Source: Nitzschia sp. pyKryTriq1
Lineage: Eukaryota > Bacillariophyta > Bacillariophyceae > Bacillariales > Bacillariaceae
Length of the DNA: 64,000 nucleotides
Assembly (NCBI GenBank): GCA_956465555.1
Contig: OY101122.1
Location: 1,995,001-2,059,000 of the forward strand
Reading direction: 5' to 3'
Part shown: piece after piece, positions 2,980 through 47,507 of the stretch
How the letters are laid out: every line of letters starts with the position of its first letter
Numbering within the stretch: the stretch's first letter is position 1
The notes under the pieces: generated by a model
What the model was told of the DNA's origin: nothing
The model's database searches: none
What the model saw: only the letters and a program-made list of their open reading frames with translations
Made by a program: the position numbers and the translations under genes

Positions 2980-4038
2980 TCAATTGCCACGACCCCTGCT
3001 GGATGCTCCTGCCGCCGCCAATAGCGATTGATGGGTTTTATTTCTGCAACTACCGCTGCTGCTGCTACTACTACTACTACTACTCCAAACCAATGCCACG
3101 GCGGTCGTAGTGGCAGCAGCAGCTGCTGCCATCCAAGGCCATCCTGCAGGCAAATGAGTATCGAGCCAATTCACGACTTTCGACGAGAGTTCATACAATT
3201 TCGCTGCTGCTGCTGATGATGATGAGGATGGCTTGCCGTTGCTGCCGCCGCCGCCACTGTCAGCAGCAGTAGGATCCAATTTGGGTCGTTTCGGTTCCAA
3301 AGAAATACTCGTCGTCTCCGAAGAAGAAGGCTCTTCTAATTCCGAAGGACTTGGTTCATACCGACGCTTATGACTTGGAAATTGCGGTTCTACCGAAAAG
3401 ACGGAGAGAAATCGCGAAAAGGGATTGGCATAATAGGTGGATGTCGAGGATGATGATGAGGAGGAGGATGCAGGTTTTTTGTGTGTTCGTCGTTCTTCCA
3501 CGGCTTTGTTGCGTTTGGATTTTTGATCCGTCTGCAATTTCTGCAAGCGTTCTTGCTTGTCCTTGGTCAATGATTCTTGCAAAATTTCCATGTCCGACTG
3601 CTGACTTTTGCCGAGTGCTGTGACTGGCAACTCGTGAATGTCATCCTTGTCATCGTCAACTGGTACTGCTACTTTGTGTTTGGTCTTGAAACCAGCAGCT
3701 GCAGCAGCAGCCGCAGTGACGTTGCTCGCCACGGGAGTCGTGTTCGTGGCCTTGACAATTCGGCGCTTGCCGACCATCAAGGCAGCTTTTTCGTCGTCTG
3801 TCATTTCGACCAAAATGCCAGAAGTCATCAGGTCGTTGCTACTTGGAGTACTGGTACCGGTACTGGTACTGGTAGTAATGATAGTAGGACTGCCACTGCG
3901 GGGAGACGGTCCAAAGGCGCTGCTCATAAACGTGGGCGAGGAGGGCTTGTCGATGGGTTCAAAGTCGTCAAACTGATCGTCACTGCTTGGGTTGTATTTG
4001 TTGTTGTACTTGTTGCTCTTGCTGCTGCTGTTTCCCAT
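2980..4038 (-). CDS. Unknown Ser/Ala-rich protein with N-myristoylation signal and C-terminal membrane segment
   Basis: I do not recognise a family. An ATG five codons upstream (4053) gives MISII before a second Met. I chose 4038 because it yields MGNSSSKSNKYN, a textbook N-myristoylation signal (Gly2, Ser6, Lys7). Residue numbers here are from that start. The roughly 352-residue protein is low complexity: a Ser/Thr-rich first third, a poly-Ala run, then a charged helix near residues 140-190 (LTKDKQERLQKLQTDQKSKR) and poly-Ser. Near the C-terminus comes NWLDTHLPAGWPWM followed by an Ala/Thr stretch ending in VALVW, which could be a membrane helix, then another poly-Ser run. If both ends work, the protein would be held on a membrane at both termini. 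The start choice and the membrane helix are inference. The gene is convergent with the wybutosine gene. Confidence 0.6.
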   Translation of the reverse strand: MGNSSSKSNKYNNKYNPSSDDQFDDFEPIDKPSSPTFMSSAFGPSPRSGSPTIITTSTSTGTSTPSSNDLMTSGILVEMTDDEKAALMVGKRRIVKATNTTPVASNVTAAAAAAAGFKTKHKVAVPVDDDKDDIHELPVTALGKSQQSDMEILQESLTKDKQERLQKLQTDQKSKRNKAVEERRTHKKPASSSSSSSSTSTYYANPFSRFLSVFSVEPQFPSHKRRYEPSPSELEEPSSSETTSISLEPKRPKLDPTAADSGGGGSNGKPSSSSSAAAAKLYELSSKVVNWLDTHLPAGWPWMAAAAAATTTAVALVWSSSSSSSSSSGSCRNKTHQSLLAAAGASSRGRGN

Positions 4039-5279
4039 GATGATGGAAATCACAGGAGTATTGATCGTTACGAGTACTAGACTACTCGTAGTTCGTTTTG
4101 TTGGAGCGATGACACACGAGACGAACGAAGCGGTTCTCTTGATGCTCTTCTCCTGCTTGTTGTTGTTGTTGTTGTGATTGAATGATGAGACCTCCTACTC
4201 TCGTTGCGATGCGTCGCGCTGCTAGTAGCTGCTGATGGAGTTCTGATTGAAGGATTTGATTGATGTCACAATCCACCAGAACGGAACGTTGTTGTGCCGG
4301 TACGTGATGTACGGTACGAACGTACCGGTACAGTACTCAGTCTACTGCAAGGCAGTGTCAAACTTCCCGTCGTTCAGAAGCGCGTGGGCGCGTGCGACGT
4401 GCGAGGGGGGAAATTCTGGACGCAGAGTTGATTTGAACGATTCCTTGGTCCTATTTTAAAATCAACTAGACGTATTTTTTCAGTCAAACGAATTAGTTCC
4501 TACCTGGAACTCTCATTCTTGGGTCTGGGTCGGGCACGACCACGTAGGCAAAAACAAAGCTGCTCGCAAGACATCCGCTGGAATTCATCATGAGTGGGCA
4601 GGAGGATTTTGTACTTCTTGTCTTGCTGATGAAGTAGGGCAACTCGAGACAAGCCGGGGAACTTCATTTGCACCTCCGGATGTACTCACCACTTTGGGAT
4701 GTCATAAACATTGAGTTCTAGAGCCATGAGGCCTTAACTATAGTGATCGAGCCACCTGGGGTGTTATGGCGCAGAGCAATTGGGTGTTAATGCCTGTTGG
4801 GGGCTAGAGTTGGGGATATCCCCTATTAGCACCTGTAGTACCTCGAACCCAACATTCAAGTCCTATTGATCAAACAAAGCATTGAATCCTATTGTTCGAC
4901 CCCAGAACGGGTACTTTCGTAGTAACCCCTCTATCGAACCAATAGTACAACCCCTCTATCGAACCAAGACTTATTGCAAGTTACGGGCGGGGGTAGCTGC
5001 CCATACCTTCAGGTACCCATCTCATAGAATGACTATTTTACGTCGAATCGGCCCGCTCCAGCATCGCAAGGGGCTGCTTTCTGCTTTATTGTTCTCAATG
5101 TCGCTGACTCGGCAATGGACGAGCTGAGACGTAGCTACAGTATGTTGATCATTGACGAGGAGCACGAGGCATCTTCACTCGAACATAATAGATTATAGAT
5201 GATTATTTTATTTTGAGATGATGTAAACAAATGTATTTGAACTGTTGGTGCTAGTACGCTCGATGGCTTGTACGCAGTA
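4039..5279. other. Intergenic region with one broken short gene
   Basis: Apart from the short broken frame at 4500-4727, nothing clearly coding is seen. TACCGGTAC-type motifs occur at about 4298-4333. A potential stem (AGTTGATTT at about 4428 against AAATCAACT at about 4460) and a near-repeat of CCCCTCTATCGAACCAA at about 4926 and 4950 are present. Confidence 0.4.
4500..4727 (-). pseudogene. Short broken gene or retroelement remnant with one in-frame stop
   Basis: On the minus strand ATG at 4727 reads MALELNVYDIPKW, then TGA. The same frame continues without a break through VHPEVQMKFPGLSRVALLHQ, DKKYKILLPTHDEFQRMSCE and CFCLRGRARPRPKNESSR, and stops at 4500-4502. The composition looks like a real protein, with no homopolymers. 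The single TGA sits exactly where GTGAGT could be a splice donor, so either a nonsense mutation or a missing exon structure could explain it. No family is recognised. Confidence 0.4.
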
Positions 5280-28351: not shown

Positions 28352-29204
28352 TCCTCAATAATCCGGTAATCGTACAGTGTGGTGAGATCAGAAACCCTCA
28401 CAACTGTTAGGCTGCTGGGGTCAATCAATAAAGAATAATTGTAGCAAGATACTGTAGTAGGAAGTCGAATTTAGAAAGATCGGAGGTCGGCATGCTAATC
28501 GTATTACTGTACTCTACGTACTCGTAATTCTAAAAAAAGAGACGAGAGACCAGACAATGTGATCGTCCGAACGATATATGCCTTCCGTTGACGTTTGGGA
28601 TGACGAGGGGCCGTGCCGACTCTATTCAAACAATATGTCATGAATATGTTTATAATGTAGCCCAAACGAACATACGAGACTTCTATTGCAAATACCGGTA
28701 CAAGTAGAGCCGGGCGGGCGAAGAATTGCCGGCGGTAGCGAGCGGCGAGCGAGTTCTGGCGAGTAATACCAGTACTGTACTCGTACAGTAAAGTATGTAC
28801 TGGTACTGCGTACCGGTGCCGCGGTACTGACAAACTGTACAGTAGACGTTGGGGAAGAAGCGAACCTGAAGCGAACATGAGCGAATCCCGAGACTTGCAG
28901 TACCGGTACTGGTACTACCGGTACAGTATTACTACCGGTAGTAGTAGACTATTTTTTATGGATACGCACCAGCATGCATTGGCCGCAGGTGCCATCAGCC
29001 GCCCAGTCATCAGTCTACGTACCTGGTACGTGTACCGTACAGCATATATACTTCTTTTGGGTTGACACCACCATATGCTATTATTAGGCAAATCGTCGGC
29101 CTCTACTCTACTAGAATATATTTTCTTTTCCCAATCTCCATCAGCCATACAGTATTATCATCGATCGGTACAAGTCATATACATATACTGTATATACAAT
29201 AAGT
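28352..29204. other. Divergent intergenic region rich in TACCGGTAC motifs
   Basis: It lies between two divergent gene starts. TACCGGTACTGGTACTACCGGTAC-like sequence fills about 28895-28945 and further copies lie at 28694 and 28795-28825. The last 25 bases before the next ATG (TATACATATACTGTATATAC, about 29178-29200) are AT-rich. Confidence 0.45.
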
Positions 29205-31127
29205 ATGGGGTCATCGTCGGTAGCAGCCTCGGAAACGGCGCTTGCCGCAAAGGCAGCGGTATCCAAAGGAACGACGACAGCTCTACGACGTTTTGCTGCT
29301 GGCATGTTGGTGGCAGGAATCTGGGGAAGAGGAGACGCCACTGATGCCGCCGTGGCTCAACGACCACAGCAACAACAACGTAAAGCAGCAGCAGCAGCAG
29401 CAGCAGAACGAGGCCCGAGAGAGTGGTTGCTGCCAATAAAACAAAGACGCACCAAGAAACAAAAGGACGAAATTATCAAAACTACAAAAGGAATGCCGCC
29501 GCCACCGCCACCACCACCAGCAGAAGCTTCTTCCAAACTCATTCTTCCACGTTGGATCAACAAGTCTGCTAATATTCTTATCACCCAAGTATTGCTGCCT
29601 TCCGTCATCGCCGTCTATGCAGTCTATCCCATGGCATCGCTCCTCCTATTTCGACTCCCCGAGCATTTCAGTTGGATGGGTCTGTTCCAAAACTTTCATC
29701 AATGTTGGGCCACGACGACTGTTCATCGAAATTGGATGTCCTGTGTCAAATTGTATGCGGCTCATGCTGCCATGTTTGCTCCTGGGTTGAGTGGATTGTG
29801 GCTCTGGAGATACAACCATAGCCTCTCCACTTCGGCCAAACAAAGAATCACGGCAATCTCTTTGATACTTGGAATGGCCCTCTTCAAACTCAGCGTCGAC
29901 CATTTTCTGTTGTTTCATTTGCCATCCGATGATGAGACGACAGTAGTAGACGTCGAAGGCAGCACCCCTAAAGTGGCCGTGATTACCGGCGCGAATCGAG
30001 GCATTGGATTCGCCACTGCCTTGGCTCTGGCTGAACGGGGCGTCCATGTCGTGGTCACATGCCGATCGTTGGCCAAATGTCAACCCGTAGTCGATCAAAT
30101 TGAACGAACGACGGCCGGAGGATCCGCCCGTGCGGCCGTCTTGGACTTGACGAGCTTGGAATCTGCCGCTCGTTTGGCCGAACAACTCTCCAACGACTAC
30201 CCCGAAATTCACTATTTCTTTGCCAACGCCGGGACGACACCACAGTATGAACTGACAAAGGAAGGATTGGAGGATGGTTTTGGAGGAATGCATTTGGCAC
30301 ACATGGCGGTAATTTTAGGAATCTTGCCCAATTTGGCAAGGGGAGGAGACACGAAGCATCCATCTAGAGTGGTCATGGTATCCAGTGAAATGTCCATCAA
30401 TGCCGCCATGGGAATCTTTGGAAATGATCTCATCTTTAGCAGCCGCAGCAGCAGCAGCAACAACACTACTACTTCAACCACGGCAAACACCACCCTTGAG
30501 GAAGATCTCTTGGACGACTGGCGGGGAGAGCGGACACGGGGAGATGGAACGATTGGTCCTAGCTTAGCGGCGTATGGGAGGGCCAAACTATGTGGAGTTC
30601 TGTTTGCATTCGAGCTCAATCGACGACTGGCAAGACAAGGGGTTCCCGTCATTTCTCATGCCGTGCATACCGGCGCGGTGGTGACCGACAGTAGCCGCAA
30701 TTCTATTCTCCATGCATTTCCTAGCTGGATACCGGGTCTGCAATGGGTCATTGGGCAAGTCTATTTCCCGATACTCTGGCGGACCGTCCAAGGGGGCGCT
30801 CGATCCTTGCTTTGTCCCGCCTTGTCGCAAGCTCCCCACATTCTCAAAGGTGGTCAATACTTGGACGCCTTGTGCCAACCATTTTTCCATGATCGGGATC
30901 CAAATCTTTCTCGAGAACAAGAAACTTTAATCAAGATTCCTTCCTTTTTGTTCGGTGAAAAGAGTACTACTACTAGTGAGGGTACAGCACCACCAACTAC
31001 CCTTCAAGTCGATCCCATCCAAGCCGTACTATTAGCGGATGTTCGATGGTCGGAACGTTTGTGGAATGTTAGCTTGGCATTTCTGGAGGAAAGTCCAGCT
31101 AGATCTGTTGTAGAGTTTGCCCCGTAA
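29205..31127 (+). CDS. Membrane-anchored short-chain dehydrogenase/reductase
   Basis: 640 residues from ATG 29205. The first 115 residues are Ala/Gln/Pro-rich. Three hydrophobic segments follow at about 122-150, 182-201 and 215-238, then a classical SDR domain from about 256. The cofactor motif TGANRGIG is at 261-268, NAG at 341-343, the catalytic Ser in MVSSEM at about 393, and Tyr457 with Lys461 in YGRAK. The adenine-side CRSLAKC suggests NADPH preference, which is inference. The usual NHLGHF motif is replaced by GMHLAHM, so the fourth catalytic residue (Asn) is Met. A Ser/Asn-rich insert (about 412-432) breaks the domain before the YxxxK helix. Similar domains act on retinoids, steroids and chlorophyll precursors; the substrate here is unknown. 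Confidence 0.85.
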   Translation: MGSSSVAASETALAAKAAVSKGTTTALRRFAAGMLVAGIWGRGDATDAAVAQRPQQQQRKAAAAAAAERGPREWLLPIKQRRTKKQKDEIIKTTKGMPPPPPPPPAEASSKLILPRWINKSANILITQVLLPSVIAVYAVYPMASLLLFRLPEHFSWMGLFQNFHQCWATTTVHRNWMSCVKLYAAHAAMFAPGLSGLWLWRYNHSLSTSAKQRITAISLILGMALFKLSVDHFLLFHLPSDDETTVVDVEGSTPKVAVITGANRGIGFATALALAERGVHVVVTCRSLAKCQPVVDQIERTTAGGSARAAVLDLTSLESAARLAEQLSNDYPEIHYFFANAGTTPQYELTKEGLEDGFGGMHLAHMAVILGILPNLARGGDTKHPSRVVMVSSEMSINAAMGIFGNDLIFSSRSSSSNNTTTSTTANTTLEEDLLDDWRGERTRGDGTIGPSLAAYGRAKLCGVLFAFELNRRLARQGVPVISHAVHTGAVVTDSSRNSILHAFPSWIPGLQWVIGQVYFPILWRTVQGGARSLLCPALSQAPHILKGGQYLDALCQPFFHDRDPNLSREQETLIKIPSFLFGEKSTTTSEGTAPPTTLQVDPIQAVLLADVRWSERLWNVSLAFLEESPARSVVEFAP

Positions 31128-34310: not shown

Positions 34311-34733
34311 GACAGAATTACCTAAGGGGTGAGTGGCGCAATGCGCGCCAGAATACGTGGAACGTCTGGCTTCGTACGTTTCCCCGAATGCTCCTGTACA
34401 CGGCGTATCCGGGGTACCGGTAGACTACACCACATACGACTGTACCTGGTACCTGTACTGGTACTCTGTTGTACTGGTACCATACTGTACCGGCGTCTAC
34501 CGGTAGCACCGATGTACCCGTACCGGTAGTGCGGTGTGTAGTGAAGCGCTCTCGGCCGGTCGAACTCTGTTGTCGCGTAGAATTTACTCCGAAAAGGCCT
34601 ACCGTAGGTAGTAGTCTCTACTAGTAGTAGTAGTCGTAGACGAAACACCTTGTACCCCGGTACGTATCTAAAAGTCTACTCGATGGAGAGAGTAGAGCCT
34701 CTCTCTCTCTCCCTCCCCTCTAGAGCGTCCCCT

Positions 34734-35129: not shown

Positions 35130-36782
35130 TCATGTCGACTCTTGAGGATTCTGTGCGTTGTTGCACCCGAGTTGGTCGGGCCCCCGATCATGGTCGGTTT
35201 CGTGGTTGTTTTGCGGATGCTGGTGGTCGTCTTCCTTTTCATCGTCGGATAACCAGTCTTCTATTAGATTCGAAGCTGCTGCTGCCGCCACCGCATCATC
35301 CTCTTCGCGGTGGCTTTCGGCCAAATCCTCCAACTCGATATCGGATCCATCATTTCGCTTGAGTTCTGTCGTCGAGCGTCCCTCGATAGAGGCTTCAATC
35401 GAATCCAGCATGATTTGACTATTATTCCTCATGGAATGACGTTGGGAGGGCCATAGTTCTATGGAACCCATTCCAGAAGACCTTCCAGTCATAGTCGAAC
35501 TGTTCAGCAAATTGTTCGAGGTACCAGCATTGAGGGAAGTCCTCCGGGATACGGATGGATTCTCCGTATCTCCCGGTGGTGTCAGTACCATACTGGGTTC
35601 CCCGTCGCCACAACCCGGATCTTCTTTGCTATTGAATCCTTGTCCCGATCGGAGCGACATCATGGAAAACCAGTTGGCCCATCTGCTGTGGCCCAAAAGG
35701 CTAATTTGGCGGCGTGATGATGAAGTGGTCGGCCCCGAAGTCCGGCGTTGTCGTAGTTGTTCTGGTCCACGACCTTGTCCTCCCTGTTGAGGCCCTTCTT
35801 CCTCCCCCTTTCCACATTGGCAGGTGAGAAAGTTCATGATTGCCTTGTAGATATCTGGTTTCATGAGAGACACCACTGCCGAAACGAGACCCTGGAGATG
35901 AGACCATAGACCTCCCACAAATTGCACCCATGGGGGAACAAACGAGGCCAAGGCGAATAAAATCAACAGGGTGGGCAGCCACATGACGTAAAACACCAAA
36001 ATGAGGCGGCCGAAATAGACAGTCAACAGCCTACGTTTCCCCGTCGGAGGTAACAAATTGCGGCTGTACACCATATACGAAACGTATGTGATATACACGG
36101 AAGGGATGCCCGCAAATAACGGAAAGAACGCCAGCCAAAAGAACAAACTCGAGGCTCGATCCATTTCGATCGGCAAACAGGCCAGTCCGCTGGTAGCCCC
36201 GGAGTGGAACGGCCAGTTGGGCCTATCAATGGCACCCCAGGTTCCCAAAAATCCCATGAATAAGTACACTCCCAGAGCTTGTTTGGTAACAAAGATCCGA
36301 GACGGCGACCTGTATCGCTTTCGAATATTGCTATATTTGAGCATCTTGTACAACTCGTAGGTAATACATCCGTTCAGCCAGGCGTTCGATCCAATCCCGA
36401 AGACGCAGTACCACTGCTGGAAGCTGCACATCCAAGCGGCCCAGTATTCTCCGTTGAGAGCGTTGAGAAGACACGTAATTCCGCAACACAGGCTAAACAC
36501 AAAATCTGGAATCGCCAGGTATAACAGATACATATTGAATGGGTTTTTCCTCGCCTTGGGGCTGGTCGCTATCCCCAAGAAGACAATCAAGCTGGCGGTC
36601 CCCACCACGAGGGCCACCACGGCCCAGACCCACCAATATCGCATCAGATCTTCATCGGAAGGTGCGGCGGCGATGACGTCGTACCGCGTCGAGTCTTCAT
36701 CGAGTTCCCACACTCGCAACATGGGCTTTCCCCTGTACCAATCCGGATCGGCAACTCCATAGCTGCTGTCCGTTGTCGCCAT
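35130..36782 (-). CDS. Seven-helix receptor-like protein (GPCR-like)
   Basis: 550 residues. Seven hydrophobic segments lie within residues about 49-308, including VWAVVALVVGTASLIVFLG, NMYLLYLAIPDFVFSLCCGI, ALGVYLFMGFLGTWG, LFFWLAFFPLFAGIPSVYIT and LILVFYVMWLPTLLILFALA. Cys119 at the start of helix 3 and Cys202 in the second outer loop are placed for the usual disulfide. Helix 6 has MWLP, like CWxP. Helix 7 ends LMKPDIYK, like NPxxY. No long signal peptide precedes the helices. A roughly 230-residue Ser-rich cytoplasmic tail follows, with an RRTSGPTTSSSRRQ site and an acidic region, suited to phosphorylation. It most resembles the cAMP-receptor-like or rhodopsin-like type seen in protists; the ligand is unknown. 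Function as a G-protein-coupled receptor is inferred from topology. Confidence 0.78.
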   Translation of the reverse strand: MATTDSSYGVADPDWYRGKPMLRVWELDEDSTRYDVIAAAPSDEDLMRYWWVWAVVALVVGTASLIVFLGIATSPKARKNPFNMYLLYLAIPDFVFSLCCGITCLLNALNGEYWAAWMCSFQQWYCVFGIGSNAWLNGCITYELYKMLKYSNIRKRYRSPSRIFVTKQALGVYLFMGFLGTWGAIDRPNWPFHSGATSGLACLPIEMDRASSLFFWLAFFPLFAGIPSVYITYVSYMVYSRNLLPPTGKRRLLTVYFGRLILVFYVMWLPTLLILFALASFVPPWVQFVGGLWSHLQGLVSAVVSLMKPDIYKAIMNFLTCQCGKGEEEGPQQGGQGRGPEQLRQRRTSGPTTSSSRRQISLLGHSRWANWFSMMSLRSGQGFNSKEDPGCGDGEPSMVLTPPGDTENPSVSRRTSLNAGTSNNLLNSSTMTGRSSGMGSIELWPSQRHSMRNNSQIMLDSIEASIEGRSTTELKRNDGSDIELEDLAESHREEDDAVAAAAASNLIEDWLSDDEKEDDHQHPQNNHETDHDRGPDQLGCNNAQNPQEST

Positions 36783-37642
36783 GGTATTCTGCTTAGACTA
36801 ATGTAGTATTCGTAAAGTTCAGTCAATAACCCTCAGACAGACAGGATACATCTGTTGCGAAGAGAGGCTGACGATGACGATCACACAATGAATGAAGACA
36901 GTGACGATGAATGAAGACAGTGACGATGAATATGTCTTCTCGTATTGCCTATACAGAAGCGGTAGACTACCGCGGTACCGGGATATCGCAGTATGATACG
37001 TTTGATGTTGTCCTCGCTCTTTTGATTGTGTGCTAATTGTATGTGGCGTCCGCAAATAATTAGCGGATATAGTGCGCGAATAATAGTAATACTGACTGTG
37101 GAGCTAGCGATGCGGTGGCGCGTTTTTGTTGATGCGTTGGTTGCGACATCTAACGCGCGCAACGCCGCACCGCGGTGAGAACGTATCGTACGAACATCAT
37201 GCATGACACGATGATGATGATTCTTCTTCTACCTCCATTTCTGAAATGCTGTAAGTACACATACAGTACATGGTAAAAGTAGCACCATACACGCCTGCCT
37301 GTGGCGGGGGCGTACCTGGTACCGTACGTGTACGACTGTACACTGGGTAAGGTACAGTACCGGTACGAGTTTATTTTCCAGCGTTCTGGCATGACGTAGG
37401 TCCATGTAGCCCTGGTACAAACGCCCGAATCACGAACACGAGTCCTGCCGCGCAATCATGATGAAAGAATTTCTTCCGCGATCGCCATCACGACAATGAC
37501 AACAAACTCCCACCGACGATGGTGTGATAGAAGCATAGCATCCACTACTTCTCTAGCGAGTACTTTTTGACTATTATTGAACATTTCATCTAAACATACA
37601 CCTTAGAAGGCATTCGTCGAAAAAAAGTCAAAAATCCGTGCA
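36783..37642. other. Intergenic region upstream of the receptor-like gene
   Basis: A direct repeat of GTGACGATGAAT(G/A) with GAAGACA lies at about 36895-36935. TACCGGTAC-type motifs occur at about 37312-37360. No coding frame is convincing. Confidence 0.4.
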
Positions 37643-43930: not shown

Positions 43931-44261
43931 CAGTACGTGTACCGTGGTTTAGCTACTACTGTAGAGCACGTGTATTAGCCAGTGCAGGATCACTTTGATG
44001 ATCATGGGCACGCAACACAACAGTGTATTATTGAGTAATATGGTATGATGGACGAAAGACCGATCCCGCTTTTTATCATGGTCGATCTTCACTCTTCACA
44101 TCTTCACGATGAGGATGGTACTATGGTAGAACCCCGGCGGTATAGCTGGGTGTACAGCGGGTACTGGAACATCCAAGGATCGAGCGATCACGCGCGCTCC
44201 ACCTTCCTCCACTGAACTCAAAAGCGCGTTAAATCGAAACCGCGGTGTCTGCTTCTCAGCG
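43931..44261. other. Intergenic region left of the palindrome cluster
   Basis: Nothing recognisable apart from a TATAGCTGGGTGTACAGCGGGTACTGG-like stretch near 44140; no coding frame. Confidence 0.3.
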
Positions 44262-44413
44262 TGGCCCACGGTTCTTGGCCTGGCCCACGGTTCTTGGCCT
44301 GGGCCAAGAATTCTTGGCCCAGGCCAAGATATCTTGGCCTGGGCCAAGAATAGGCCAAGAATTCTTGGCCCAGGCCAAAAATTCTTGGCCTGGGCCAAGA
44401 ATTCTTGGCCTAG
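44262..44413. repeat. Left palindromic cluster (GGCCAAG-based)
   Basis: Dense alternation of CTTGGCCTGGGCCAAG and CTTGGCCCAGGCCAAG units, several joined by an AATTCT or ATATCT link, so that almost every stretch is self-complementary. It begins with two imperfect GTGGCCCACGGTTCTTGGCC copies and ends at CTTGGCCTAGAGCCCCCC. Confidence 0.92.
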
Positions 44414-44473
44414 AGCCCCCCTTCTCTGTGCTTCCCCCCCCATTTTTTAAAAAAATCTGTTGGTCATTCGGAC

Positions 44474-44495
44474 CAGAGAACCATATGGTTCTCTG
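44474..44495. repeat. Perfect 22-bp palindrome between direct repeats
   Basis: CAGAGAACCATATGGTTCTC followed by TG is self-complementary around CATATG. It is flanked by direct copies of ATTCGGACCA at 44466-44475 and 44496-44505. It lies just inside the left palindrome cluster. Confidence 0.88.
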
Positions 44496-44529
44496 ATTCG
44501 GACCAACAGAGCATACGTGCATATCTAAT

Positions 44530-45240
44530 TTGTTACAAGCCCCATCGATATCGGCGGTGTCGGCCAAGGCGACGGTCGAAGAAATCAAAGCATCGCTTGG
44601 ACCAAACAAATTCAAACAGCTCAAACGACTCACCAAAGACTTTGCTGAAAGTAGTCTCTCCCCTGAGGGCTATGTCGATCAATCCGCAGCCCTGTTCGAT
44701 CGGGGCTATGCTGATCCAGACTTTTGGTCCTTCTTACCGTCGCTGTTGGAATCCTGCCCGAATTCCCAAGCTTCTGAACATGCCCTGCAATACATGAACA
44801 GCGTCCGGCGACAACAATTTGCGGAAAAGAAACCGGCGGCCACGCGACCCAATCTTGCCGTCGCTGGCACTTCATCATGGGGTGGAAGTGGCCCTGCTAT
44901 CAGCAGGGTCGCGCAACCCCCCACTGTGAGGTCGTCGCCAGCAACTAGGACCAACAACTTCCCTGCCATGCCTGCCCGCCTAGCTCCTGCTGTAATGGGT
45001 TCCAAGAAGAAGATGGGGTGGTACCGGAGCCGCTACTGTGGTCCGAGCCAAGGCCTCACCAGGGTCCGTGGCAGTGGCAGCCGCCAATCAAGGCCCACAG
45101 GGAGGGAGTGCGACGAAATTCATGGCCAAGCAAAGCAAGCAACAGGCGGCGGCCAATCAGAACAACCCAACGGAGGCAACAGTCAAAAGAAAAAGAAACA
45201 AAAGGATGAGCTTCGCGCTGTTGCGTTTGGAGGGAAGTAG
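44530..45240 (+). pseudogene. 5'-truncated ZNF598/Hel2-like gene fragment with compensating frame shifts
   Basis: The frame opens after a stop at 44494 and has no ATG before protein-like sequence begins. The clear part reads GPNKFKQLKRLTKDFAESSL, YVDQSAALFDRGYADPDFWS and FLPSLLESCPNSQ, resembling the region near the C-terminus of ZNF598/Hel2 ubiquitin ligases, which sense collided ribosomes. From about 45015 this frame degrades to Arg/Gly/Ser-rich sequence. The next frame instead reads VRAKASPGSVAVAAANQGPQ and SATKFMAKQSKQQAAANQNN to about 45190, and the original frame then resumes with KKKKQKDELRAVAFGGK before the stop. Two compensating one-base changes explain this. The RING finger and zinc-finger parts of the gene are absent. 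Family assignment is from memory of the pattern and moderately sure. Confidence 0.5.
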
Positions 45241-45506
45241 GTGATCGACTGCTAGTGGCGAGAGTCGTGTCTGAGATGTCCGCGTTCTTGTAGTAGACTA
45301 CTACGGAGTAGATTACTATTCAAAATACGACCCTTCGTTGTTGTTTTTCCTTACTAACAACCACTAATGTGTACGATGTTCGTCGGGACTTTATACTACC
45401 GGGTACGCATACGTACTGAGAAGAAAGAGATCGTAGCGACTAAAAACCTCTAATGGAGACATTTTTACGGCTTCAAAAACTGAGCATATCTCTACGAACC
45501 AATCAT

Positions 45507-46219
45507 TTAAAAGACGGCTTCGTCTCCGTCGCCTCCATCACTCTCATCATCACTGGCGTAATAGTTTGTCGTGTAATCGGCGACCTCTTCTTCATCTTCC
45601 TCCTCGATTTCTGCTGTGTCACTGAGTTCCCCCTCCTCTCCTTCCTCCCCAGTTGCTTTCTTTCGTTGCTCCTCCGCTGCCAGTTCTTCCAGCGTCAACG
45701 CTCGCTTCGGAGTCCCATCCTCGCCTAATTCACCAACTTTGTGAGAAGAAGCCAAGGGCAAAGCAACAAGCTTGTCAGGCAAAAGTTCTTCGGGAAGGTA
45801 CCGCGGATCGGCAGTCTTGCCGATGCTCTCCGCTACATGGACATCTGGTTCCAAAGGGCGCGGACGTTTGTTGTATCGGACCACGTCAACTTCTTGCGAC
45901 GGTCGGACATAGAAAGGAGAATCCTGGAAGCGATGATGCATTTCGCGGCTCTTGTTGATCAGATAAATGTTGGGAGCCGTGGCTCGTTTGGATGAGGGAC
46001 TGAGCTGGTTGCAACGACGAAGGCGTTGGATCATGACCCTTCTGGCCGCTCGAATGCCATTCAAAATCCGGGAATAGTAGAGGCTTGGTAATGTCTTGCA
46101 AGCTGCGCAGATTCCCGGCATCTAGACCAGCTTCTTGAGCTGATCGCTGCAACAAGAGCCGTGCTCCCGAGGGCGGAGCTCGCCCCCCCACGGCCGCGGC
46201 CTCTACCTCTGCCTGACAT
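45507..46219 (-). CDS. RNA polymerase III subunit RPC7 (POLR3G/Rpc31)-like, two frame breaks
   Basis: ATG 46219 begins MSGRGRGRGRGG, the Gly/Arg-rich start typical of RPC7. After a run of seven C (plus strand, 46183-46189) the conserved sequence continues in another frame: SAQEAGLDAGNLRSLQDITK then PLLFPDFEWHSSG. A second one-base shift near 46000-46070 leads to RATAPNIYLINKSREMHHRF and QDSPFYVRPSQEVDVVRYNK. An acidic tail (EIEEEDEEEVADYTTNYYAS, ending GDGDEAVF) closes the protein, as in RPC7. RPC7 belongs to the Pol III RPC3-6-7 subcomplex needed for initiation. The G/C homopolymer suggests a sequencing indel for the first break; if both are real, this is a pseudogene. It lies inside the segment bracketed by palindrome clusters. 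Confidence 0.65.
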
Positions 46220-46587
46220 GATAATTTCAGTGAGCAACGATTGGGCTATGTTTCCATAATTGAAGCTGAACGCGGGCTCTTGCGAATGGTTACGATTTCT
46301 GGTGTCTCCTATTGACGTCTGCCAACACAGTAAAGCCGTTCGGCCGACATCCCATTGCCAAGATGAGATGATGATGAGATGTCGCCACAAAACAAGCGAC
46401 ACCTCGAGTGAGAGATGCCATGGTAGGTGGGAAGAAAAGAGAAAATTGAAGAATGAATCGATGCGAGAGATCTTGGATTTGTTCAATGAGCGATGATGAA
46501 ATGGGATGATGAGCGCTGATGCGCTGATGCGATGTTTGAAATTCGACGACTAGTCTGTTTACTCTTTTGGGGGTACAGAAAGGGGGT

Positions 46588-46745
46588 AGGCCTTGGGCCA
46601 AGACTAGGCCAAGAAATCTTGGCCCAGGCCAAGAATTCTTGGCCTGGGCCAAGAGTAGGCCAAGAAGTCTTGGCCCAGGCCAAGAATTCTTGGCCCAGGC
46701 CAAGAATTCTTGGCCTAGGCCAAGAATCTTGGCCCAGGCCAAGCG
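46588..46745. repeat. Right palindromic cluster (GGCCAAG-based), inverted relative to the left one
   Basis: The same CTTGGCCCAGGCCAAG / CTTGGCCTGGGCCAAG units with AATTCT, AGTCT and AAATCT links. Read on the minus strand, its inner edge (CTTGGCCTAGTCTTGGCCCA then TACCCCCTTTCTGTACCCCC) resembles the inner edge of the left cluster (CTTGGCCTAGAGCCCCCC then TTCTCTGTGCTTCCCCCCC). Confidence 0.9.
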
Positions 46746-47507
46746 GGCTTTGCCACGGAGCGTGGCTAGCGCGAAAGAGCATTGTCCAAGCGTGCCCGTA
46801 AAGCGAGTTCCACGTTAGTGCGCGGTGACCCGCACCCTTGGATGTTCCTGTACCGGTAGACCGGTACCGGTACAGTACCGGTGTGTACTACGTACGTACC
46901 GTCAGTATGACATGACGTCATCGCTTCTTCATCGAAGCAGTCTGAACGGGACATTATATGCCCCTGGATTTCGTTGGAACACAGAAAATTCTGAAAAATA
47001 ATGCACGATTGTAGACAAACTTCCGTCCACCTGGAGGCAAATTCGCACAGAAACAAGCACTACGACATGTCAATGACATATTCTAATCATTGTGCGACAC
47101 TCCAACGACATGATGCATTGTTAAGAACCGAAAAAACAGGATTGGGATTACTCGTATTATTGAGATACTTCTACTCTAGCTGTCTTCATAATCGTTGAAA
47201 AAACCAGCAATGCAACTTCTTTCAGTTCCGTGCGCACGGTTCTCATCATCATCGATTATCGCACGATTCTTCTTCTTCTTCCGCCTCGCCGCTCGCGCTA
47301 ACTCAACATCATCAGCTCACAAAACGCACACGCAACTTTTCCGCTTCCCGTCCCTCATTTTCTACCAGACACAAATCCGAAGACTCCTCATTCGTTCTCA
47401 CGGATCCAAAACAATCAACAGAAACCCCATCCACAAGCTGCTGTCCACACCCATCCATTCATCCATCCATCCATCCATCCATCCATCCATCCAGTATTTT
47501 AGCTACC
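46746..47507. other. Intergenic region right of the palindrome cluster
   Basis: TACCGGTAC palindromes are dense at about 46848-46882. A CATC tetranucleotide run (about 47451-47492) lies just upstream of the next gene. No coding frame is convincing. Confidence 0.4.
47451..47492. repeat. CATC tetranucleotide microsatellite
   Basis: About nine to ten CATC/CATT units end 17 bases before the ATG at 47508, so it is probably in the 5' UTR or core promoter of the next gene. Confidence 0.85.

Follow-up and report, generated by a model that had tools for sequence, protein, structure and literature searches.

The window analysed here comprises 64,000 nucleotides and corresponds to positions 1995001-2059000 of contig C8 in a 40.65-Mb, 20-contig assembly. 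It contains a captured chromosomal segment of 1,882 bp (44520..46401), which is 98.4% identical to a 1,895-bp donor on contig C11 (L053:1380-3274). The left part of this segment carries, on the forward strand, the 3' fragment of a ZNF598/Hel2-like gene, including the PAH_ZNF598 region (44520..45240), with deletions of 5 bp and 10 bp with respect to the donor. An RPC7/Rpc31-like pseudogene follows on the reverse strand (45507..46219), with two frameshifts relative to the donor and a start codon from which only 52 aa can be read. The donor alignment shows that another 182 bp (46220..46401, reverse strand) were captured from the upstream side of the RPC7-like gene, and these probably correspond to its promoter region. 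Comparison with the intact C11 donor thus confirms both degraded genes recognised in a preliminary description of this DNA, the 3' part of a ZNF598-like gene and an RPC7/Rpc31-like gene whose frame is broken twice.

In this donor, the cargo aligns as a single contiguous stretch, the two genes being adjacent and in the same order. There, the ZNF598/Hel2-like frame is 704 aa or longer, since it remains open where the fetched stretch stops on its 5' side, and shows a zf-C2H2_13 match, together with a PAH_ZNF598 Pfam match that barely passes its threshold (26.1 bits vs a cut-off of 25). The RPC7/Rpc31-like gene is a single, intact exon (C11:898883-899680), with a frame of 266 aa from stop to stop and 236 aa from the ATG; its Rpc31 Pfam match is below threshold (17.8 bits vs 30.2, E 0.0036), and a PDB search with this protein gave none at E values up to 1. 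The comparison with an intact RPC7 locus that had been proposed has therefore found one, outside any transposon, and the segment in the window is not the sole locus of this gene. No recognisable transposon ends appeared within the 5 kb read at the donor, at the end threshold used, a two-mismatch 13-mer at L053:4342 being taken as chance. As judged by eye against the transposase-bearing copy L040 (see below), the joins between cargo and transposon show an overlap of about 1 bp on the left and 2 bp on the right.

Terminal repeats, target duplications and subterminal arrays

The cargo is flanked by a left transposon end (LE, 44167..44519, forward strand) and a right one (RE, 46402..46847, forward strand), diverged versions of which are present in L040. 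Comparison of the flanks among copies places 12-bp terminal inverted repeats, GAACATCCAAGG and its complement, at 44167 and 46847 (44167..44178 on the forward strand and 46836..46847 on the reverse strand), and the element spans 44167-46847, that is, 2,681 bp. It is bordered by a CTG target-site duplication, with identical triplets at 44164..44166 and 46848..46850. The preliminary description had taken two clusters of palindromes as the edges of the element and had proposed to look for a target duplication near 44255 and 46750, positions that had to be corrected, the true ends being located ~95-105 bp beyond the clusters on each side. The alignments of the copies end at the terminal repeats or not more than a few tens of bases, rich in GTAC, away from them.

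The palindrome clusters are two subterminal arrays of GGCCAAG units, 44262..44412 on the left, with 20-bp units (unit scan and single-stranded fold), and 46590..46743 on the right (unit scan). With up to two mismatches, six matches to CTTGGCCYRGGCCAAG are found at 44274-44399 and six more at 46618-46743, with a period of 20 bp; these 12 are all those existing in the window, where shuffling leads to an expectation of 0.04 and none of 100 shuffles reaches 12. The arrays are inverted repeats of each other over 140 bp (86% identity, 85% ungapped) and share, at their inner edge, the C-rich sequence CCCCCTT(C)TCTGT. Both the inverted arrangement and the C-rich flank with CTGT had been described earlier, and both hold. 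A CCAAG core common to the arrays and the terminal repeat is directly visible, and the left array is very prone to form hairpins as single-stranded DNA (fold z = -14.2).

Across the genome there are 152 cluster-unit sites. The 50 listed, from C1 and part of C2, group into 12 loci, and all 12 adjoin at least one end of the family of the window element, three of them (C1:3208k, C1:3596k and C2:2238k) with a right end alone under the end-search thresholds. Thus, among these 50 sites the clusters are not mostly unpaired; mostly unpaired clusters are what the preliminary description had regarded as contrary to its proposal. The window arrays are the subterminal arrays of a transposon family.

When the window and 40 other fetched loci were considered, CWG triplets matched in 22 of 25 end pairs, and in 21 of the 22 pairs formed by one LE and one RE. 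Two entries were removed before counting: L046, which duplicates L051, and a weak match resembling an end at position 30817 of the window. Sixteen loci with one end only, L046 among them, were excluded from the 25 pairs; L061 was counted as one-ended, though a second, altered end is visible there, and the inner RE was used for pairing in L045, which has two. A 1-bp target duplication had been the first idea; it was abandoned after moving the boundary by one base, which gives the CWG triplet that fits 22 of the 25 pairs. Those without matching triplets are two LE-LE chimeras and L075.

The combination of CWG and terminal repeat occurs at 92 exact places in the genome and, with up to one mismatch, gives 117 matches on both strands vs 7 for a reversed control. 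If two mismatches are allowed, 47 LE and 52 RE matches are obtained; 31 pairs of these face each other at distances of up to 20 kb, one of them, on C11 and 13.5 kb long, being probably spurious. Short LE-RE elements, of about 190-230 bp, are also known in this genome. Besides these, three chimeric elements (L043, L055 and L050) have two left or two right ends each, the two LE-LE chimeras without matching duplications and the RE-RE chimera with them, which suggests rearrangement between copies.

Copies, a transposase-bearing relative and classification

A genome search with positions 44230-46800 returned at least 140 matching pieces from the 40 candidates scored out of 61. Ten other places align over roughly 1.9-2.6 kb, namely nine elements and the C11 donor. 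These nine elements carry the full cargo at unrelated sites and align through both junctions; including the window, the whole segment is present in ten copies. Part of the cargo is found in a copy on C12 (positions 833-1895 of the donor segment) and at C4:1769k (positions 1-619), and many pieces consist only of ends, the short derivatives including L038 and L060. Two copies on C7 match all 2,571 query bases, with an identity that rounds to 100%.

The copy at C1:3973k (L037, C1:3972500-3976500) agrees with the donor at the sites of the two small deletions and of the two frame breaks, carries private substitutions, and has an open RPC7 frame. With respect to the donor gene, it has accumulated seven substitutions, four synonymous and three non-synonymous, over about 169 and 539 sites, respectively, which are too few for showing selection on this frame. 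The RPC7 start was also read in ten further copies, among them that of the window; all of them yield an identical 52-aa product, and this common frameshifted version indicates that the ten descend from one broken copy. At the left end, a shorter form is found in C1:3973k, L040, L038 and L059, and an insertion at this place in the window, L050, L054 and L055. The C1:3973k copy is an older form of the element, and the simplest history starts from one capture and an early copy whose gene was intact, followed by one lineage in which it was broken and by recent amplification in a burst.

The C12 copy (L054) contains 1.08 kb of extra sequence (L054:2562-3640) that gives 51 matching pieces genome-wide and probably derives from other mobile elements that became joined to this copy. 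A second gene capture was considered for this stretch and discarded, the genome-wide matches making other repeats likelier; a Pfam search with L054:2929-3711 gave nothing.

Ends like those of the window element, with a CAG duplication, delimit L040, a 5.95-kb element at C1:1691691-1697636. Its left end is about 86% identical to that of the window, and its right end about 85%. L040 encodes a DDE_Tnp_4 domain (PF13359, L040:4466-5026, E 7.6e-7, 29.3 bits vs a cut-off of 24.8), and is the sole close transposase match found genome-wide, five others being 34-37% identical. The N-terminal part of the transposase sits in another frame, for which reason an intron is presumed; against PDB, the protein matched only a designed repeat protein (E 0.044). 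Two long ORFs on the reverse strand, of 461 aa (L040:1960-3342) and 481 aa (L040:5162-6604), are candidates for a second transposition protein, although neither gave a significant Pfam match and a Myb/SANT domain was not recognised. The former gave no significant PDB match (best E 1.2) and is represented elsewhere in the genome by a single 30-residue fragment, and the start of the latter (about 134 residues) overlaps the family-wide right end. Taking into account the shared ends, through which L040 is linked to the copies, this element is likely to be the source of transposase for the family.

On the strength of L040, the family belongs to the PIF/Harbinger (PHIS) superfamily, its CWG duplications being of the NuwaI type. 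A full-length member has a DDE_Tnp_4 transposase, and 12-bp terminal inverted repeats are present, as in PHIS elements, along with a 3-bp duplication, as in most groups of them. The duplication is not the TWA reported for the narrow-sense PIF/Harbinger group (PMC4482050), but the CWG of the NuwaI group, found in the 21 LE-RE pairs mentioned above. NuwaI, a group of the PHIS (PIF/Harbinger-ISL2EU-Spy) superfamily described mainly in animals (PMC4482050), resembles the present family in the kind of DDE transposase, the terminal inverted repeats and the CWG triplet. It differs in its hosts, the present one being a photosynthetic eukaryote (72 PF00504 light-harvesting family matches), possibly a diatom-like alga, and in its Myb/SANT second protein, which was not recognised by Pfam among the L040 ORFs.

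Pack-TYPE transposons have been described in plants, PIF elements of maize and rice being among them (PMC8903248). The window element has likewise non-autonomous ends around captured host coding DNA that has been amplified, this DNA having a separate source on C11 and the ends being shared with L040; unlike those described (PMC8903248), it carries a complete gene and a gene tail in one contiguous segment and belongs to a CWG-type family. In fungi, a hAT transposon has captured and amplified histone H3 (PMC6710886), another case of a housekeeping gene amplified by a DNA transposon while the original remains intact. That element belongs to another superfamily and its copies, which number hundreds and were inactivated by RIP (PMC6710886), contrast with the about a dozen found here, ten of them with shared frameshifts. 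Subterminal repeat arrays, which in some elements are inverted between one end and the other, are known from the Medicago PIF/Harbinger element MtPH-A6-4 (PMC2213677), in which they consist of 60-bp tandem repeats, unlike the 20-bp palindromic units with the CCAAG core of the terminal repeat observed here. Transduplication has also been reported for C. elegans Turmoil-1 (PMC2572040). For gene-capturing elements of diatoms or algae, no direct match was found in the titles and abstract beginnings of the open-licence literature, and passages from a 2026 review of plant gene capture (PMC13317346) make no mention of Harbinger or algae. The parts of the element are therefore known already, and it is their combination and the host that have no counterpart in the open-licence literature compared.

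Target sites and GTAC tracts

The right flank of the element, already in the target, is a GTAC-rich palindromic tract with seven GTAC (46850..46899). GTAC appears within 10 nt of 46 of 66 ends, vs 5.4% of the CWG sites of the window. When a distance of 9 nt, CWG included, is taken, GTAC is present on both sides in 14 of 25 insertion sites vs 31 of the 1,789 window CWG sites, and within 9 nt on at least one side in 21 of 25 vs 166 of 1,789. The preference is not absolute, since GTAC is absent from the 9 nt on both sides of four of the 25 sites (L040, L047, L049 and L062), among them the site of the transposase copy itself and that of one nearly identical copy. The zebrafish element Harbinger3_DR appears to prefer a palindromic target with a central CWG, and the central CWG of the present targets is similar; unlike it, the target here is based on GTAC, with the form GTACCWGGTAC.

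This motif occurs 3,792 times in the genome vs 63 for the reversed pattern, an excess of about 60-fold. In the window there are 22 clusters of at least three GTAC, the tract at the insertion site counted, vs 0.17 expected under a first-order model (further examples are 3848-3869, 4300-4336, 28772-28840, 34442-34490 and 37312-37366), and 19 of the 22 fall outside the 56% of the window occupied by its 24 ORFs of 300 aa or more. Taking into account that GTACCWGGTAC sites greatly exceed the 92 exact places of the terminal repeat, these tracts are not simply marks left by the present copies. No direct match for them was found in the titles and abstract beginnings of the open-licence literature. As a tentative idea, which we consider possible yet rather doubtful, the GTAC-palindrome tracts of this genome might be landing pads that the family evolved to use, reading the palindrome and cutting the central CWG; host-gene cargo, including the intact RNA polymerase III subunit-like gene of C1, which may be functional, could in this way have been amplified with little damage to genes.

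Origin and spread of the captured segment

The ends and duplications, the donor, the breakpoints and frameshifts common to the copies, their presence at several sites and a relative encoding a DDE transposase have all been shown. With high confidence, the segment is a non-autonomous cut-and-paste transposon of the PIF/Harbinger (PHIS) type with CWG duplication in which 1.9 kb of host DNA have taken the place of the interior, that is, a Pack-type element. According to this proposal, the transposase of the C1 copy would act in trans, probably assisted by a second DNA-binding protein, its substrates being the terminal repeats and the subterminal arrays that contain CCAAG. The binding of the arrays by an element-encoded protein would be in line with Harbinger3N_DR, whose terminal repeats are bound by the ORF1 protein (PMC2836001). 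Insertion would take place at CWG, mostly inside GTAC palindromes. The host piece may have been acquired when an excision gap was repaired with a template switch to C11, an event suggested by the joins, with an overlap of only 1-2 bp. Later, one lineage would have lost the RPC7 frame and been amplified recently to about ten copies, one copy of the older type keeping the frame.

The preliminary description had left the choice between a foldback and a Pack-type element, and only the latter part has stood. In a foldback element, the inverted palindrome clusters would themselves be the mobile ends, moving through hairpin-driven rearrangement, and the inverted, palindromic and, as single strand, hairpin-prone nature of the clusters (left z -14.2) agrees with this. 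It is nevertheless very improbable, in view of copies that end at 12-bp terminal repeats with a CWG duplication, ~95-105 bp outside the clusters, of the DDE transposase encoded by a copy with the same ends, which places the family among PIF/Harbinger-like elements, and of the short LE-RE elements of about 190-230 bp. Still less credit, practically none, is given to a plain segmental or gene duplication beside unrelated repeats. Such an event would account for a donor and copies that are 98% identical, with both genes neighbouring and in order, but not for two junctions common to the full-cargo copies, nor for the transposon ends and target duplications that delimit these copies, whose sites are unrelated.

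A further alternative differs from the Pack-type proposal in acquisition only: the cargo could have been captured by the joint mobilisation of two neighbouring elements and the DNA between them, as in the tandem-insertion model of Pack-CACTA. We consider it unlikely, though deserving some weight, given that this model is favoured for plant Pack-TYPE elements (PMC8903248) and that LE-LE and RE-RE chimeras exist here (L043, L055, L050). Nevertheless, in the window copy the stretches separating the arrays from the cargo yielded no inner terminal repeats, at C11 no end is recognisable in the 5 kb read, and the overlap of about 1-2 bp at the joins resembles that of end joining or template switching. 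It could also be thought that the intact RPC7-like copy on C1 is expressed and retained for its function, the element being a vehicle of gene dispersal and not a carrier of debris. The open frame, in which four of seven substitutions are synonymous and three are not, and the capture of upstream sequence (182 bp in the window copy) would be compatible with this, although seven substitutions are too few to demonstrate selection and the ten other copies read are all broken. A functional role of this copy thus appears improbable.

Under the Pack-type proposal, several stages of gene capture coexist in one genome: the donor, an intact captured copy, a broken and amplified lineage, deletion derivatives and a candidate source of transposase. 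They do so in a photosynthetic eukaryote, whereas in the literature compared plants are the hosts of Pack-TYPE elements, and animals the main hosts of PHIS elements of the CWG type. Moreover, the GTAC-palindrome preference makes it possible to test whether a eukaryotic transposon aims at dispersed motifs, which here lie mostly outside long reading frames. In practical terms, gene annotation could count about ten extra copies of the cargo genes. Elsewhere in the window, a 550-aa ORF (35133-36782, reverse strand) has a match to the rhodopsin-type 7tm_1 family just below threshold (29.3 bits vs a cut-off of 30.5).
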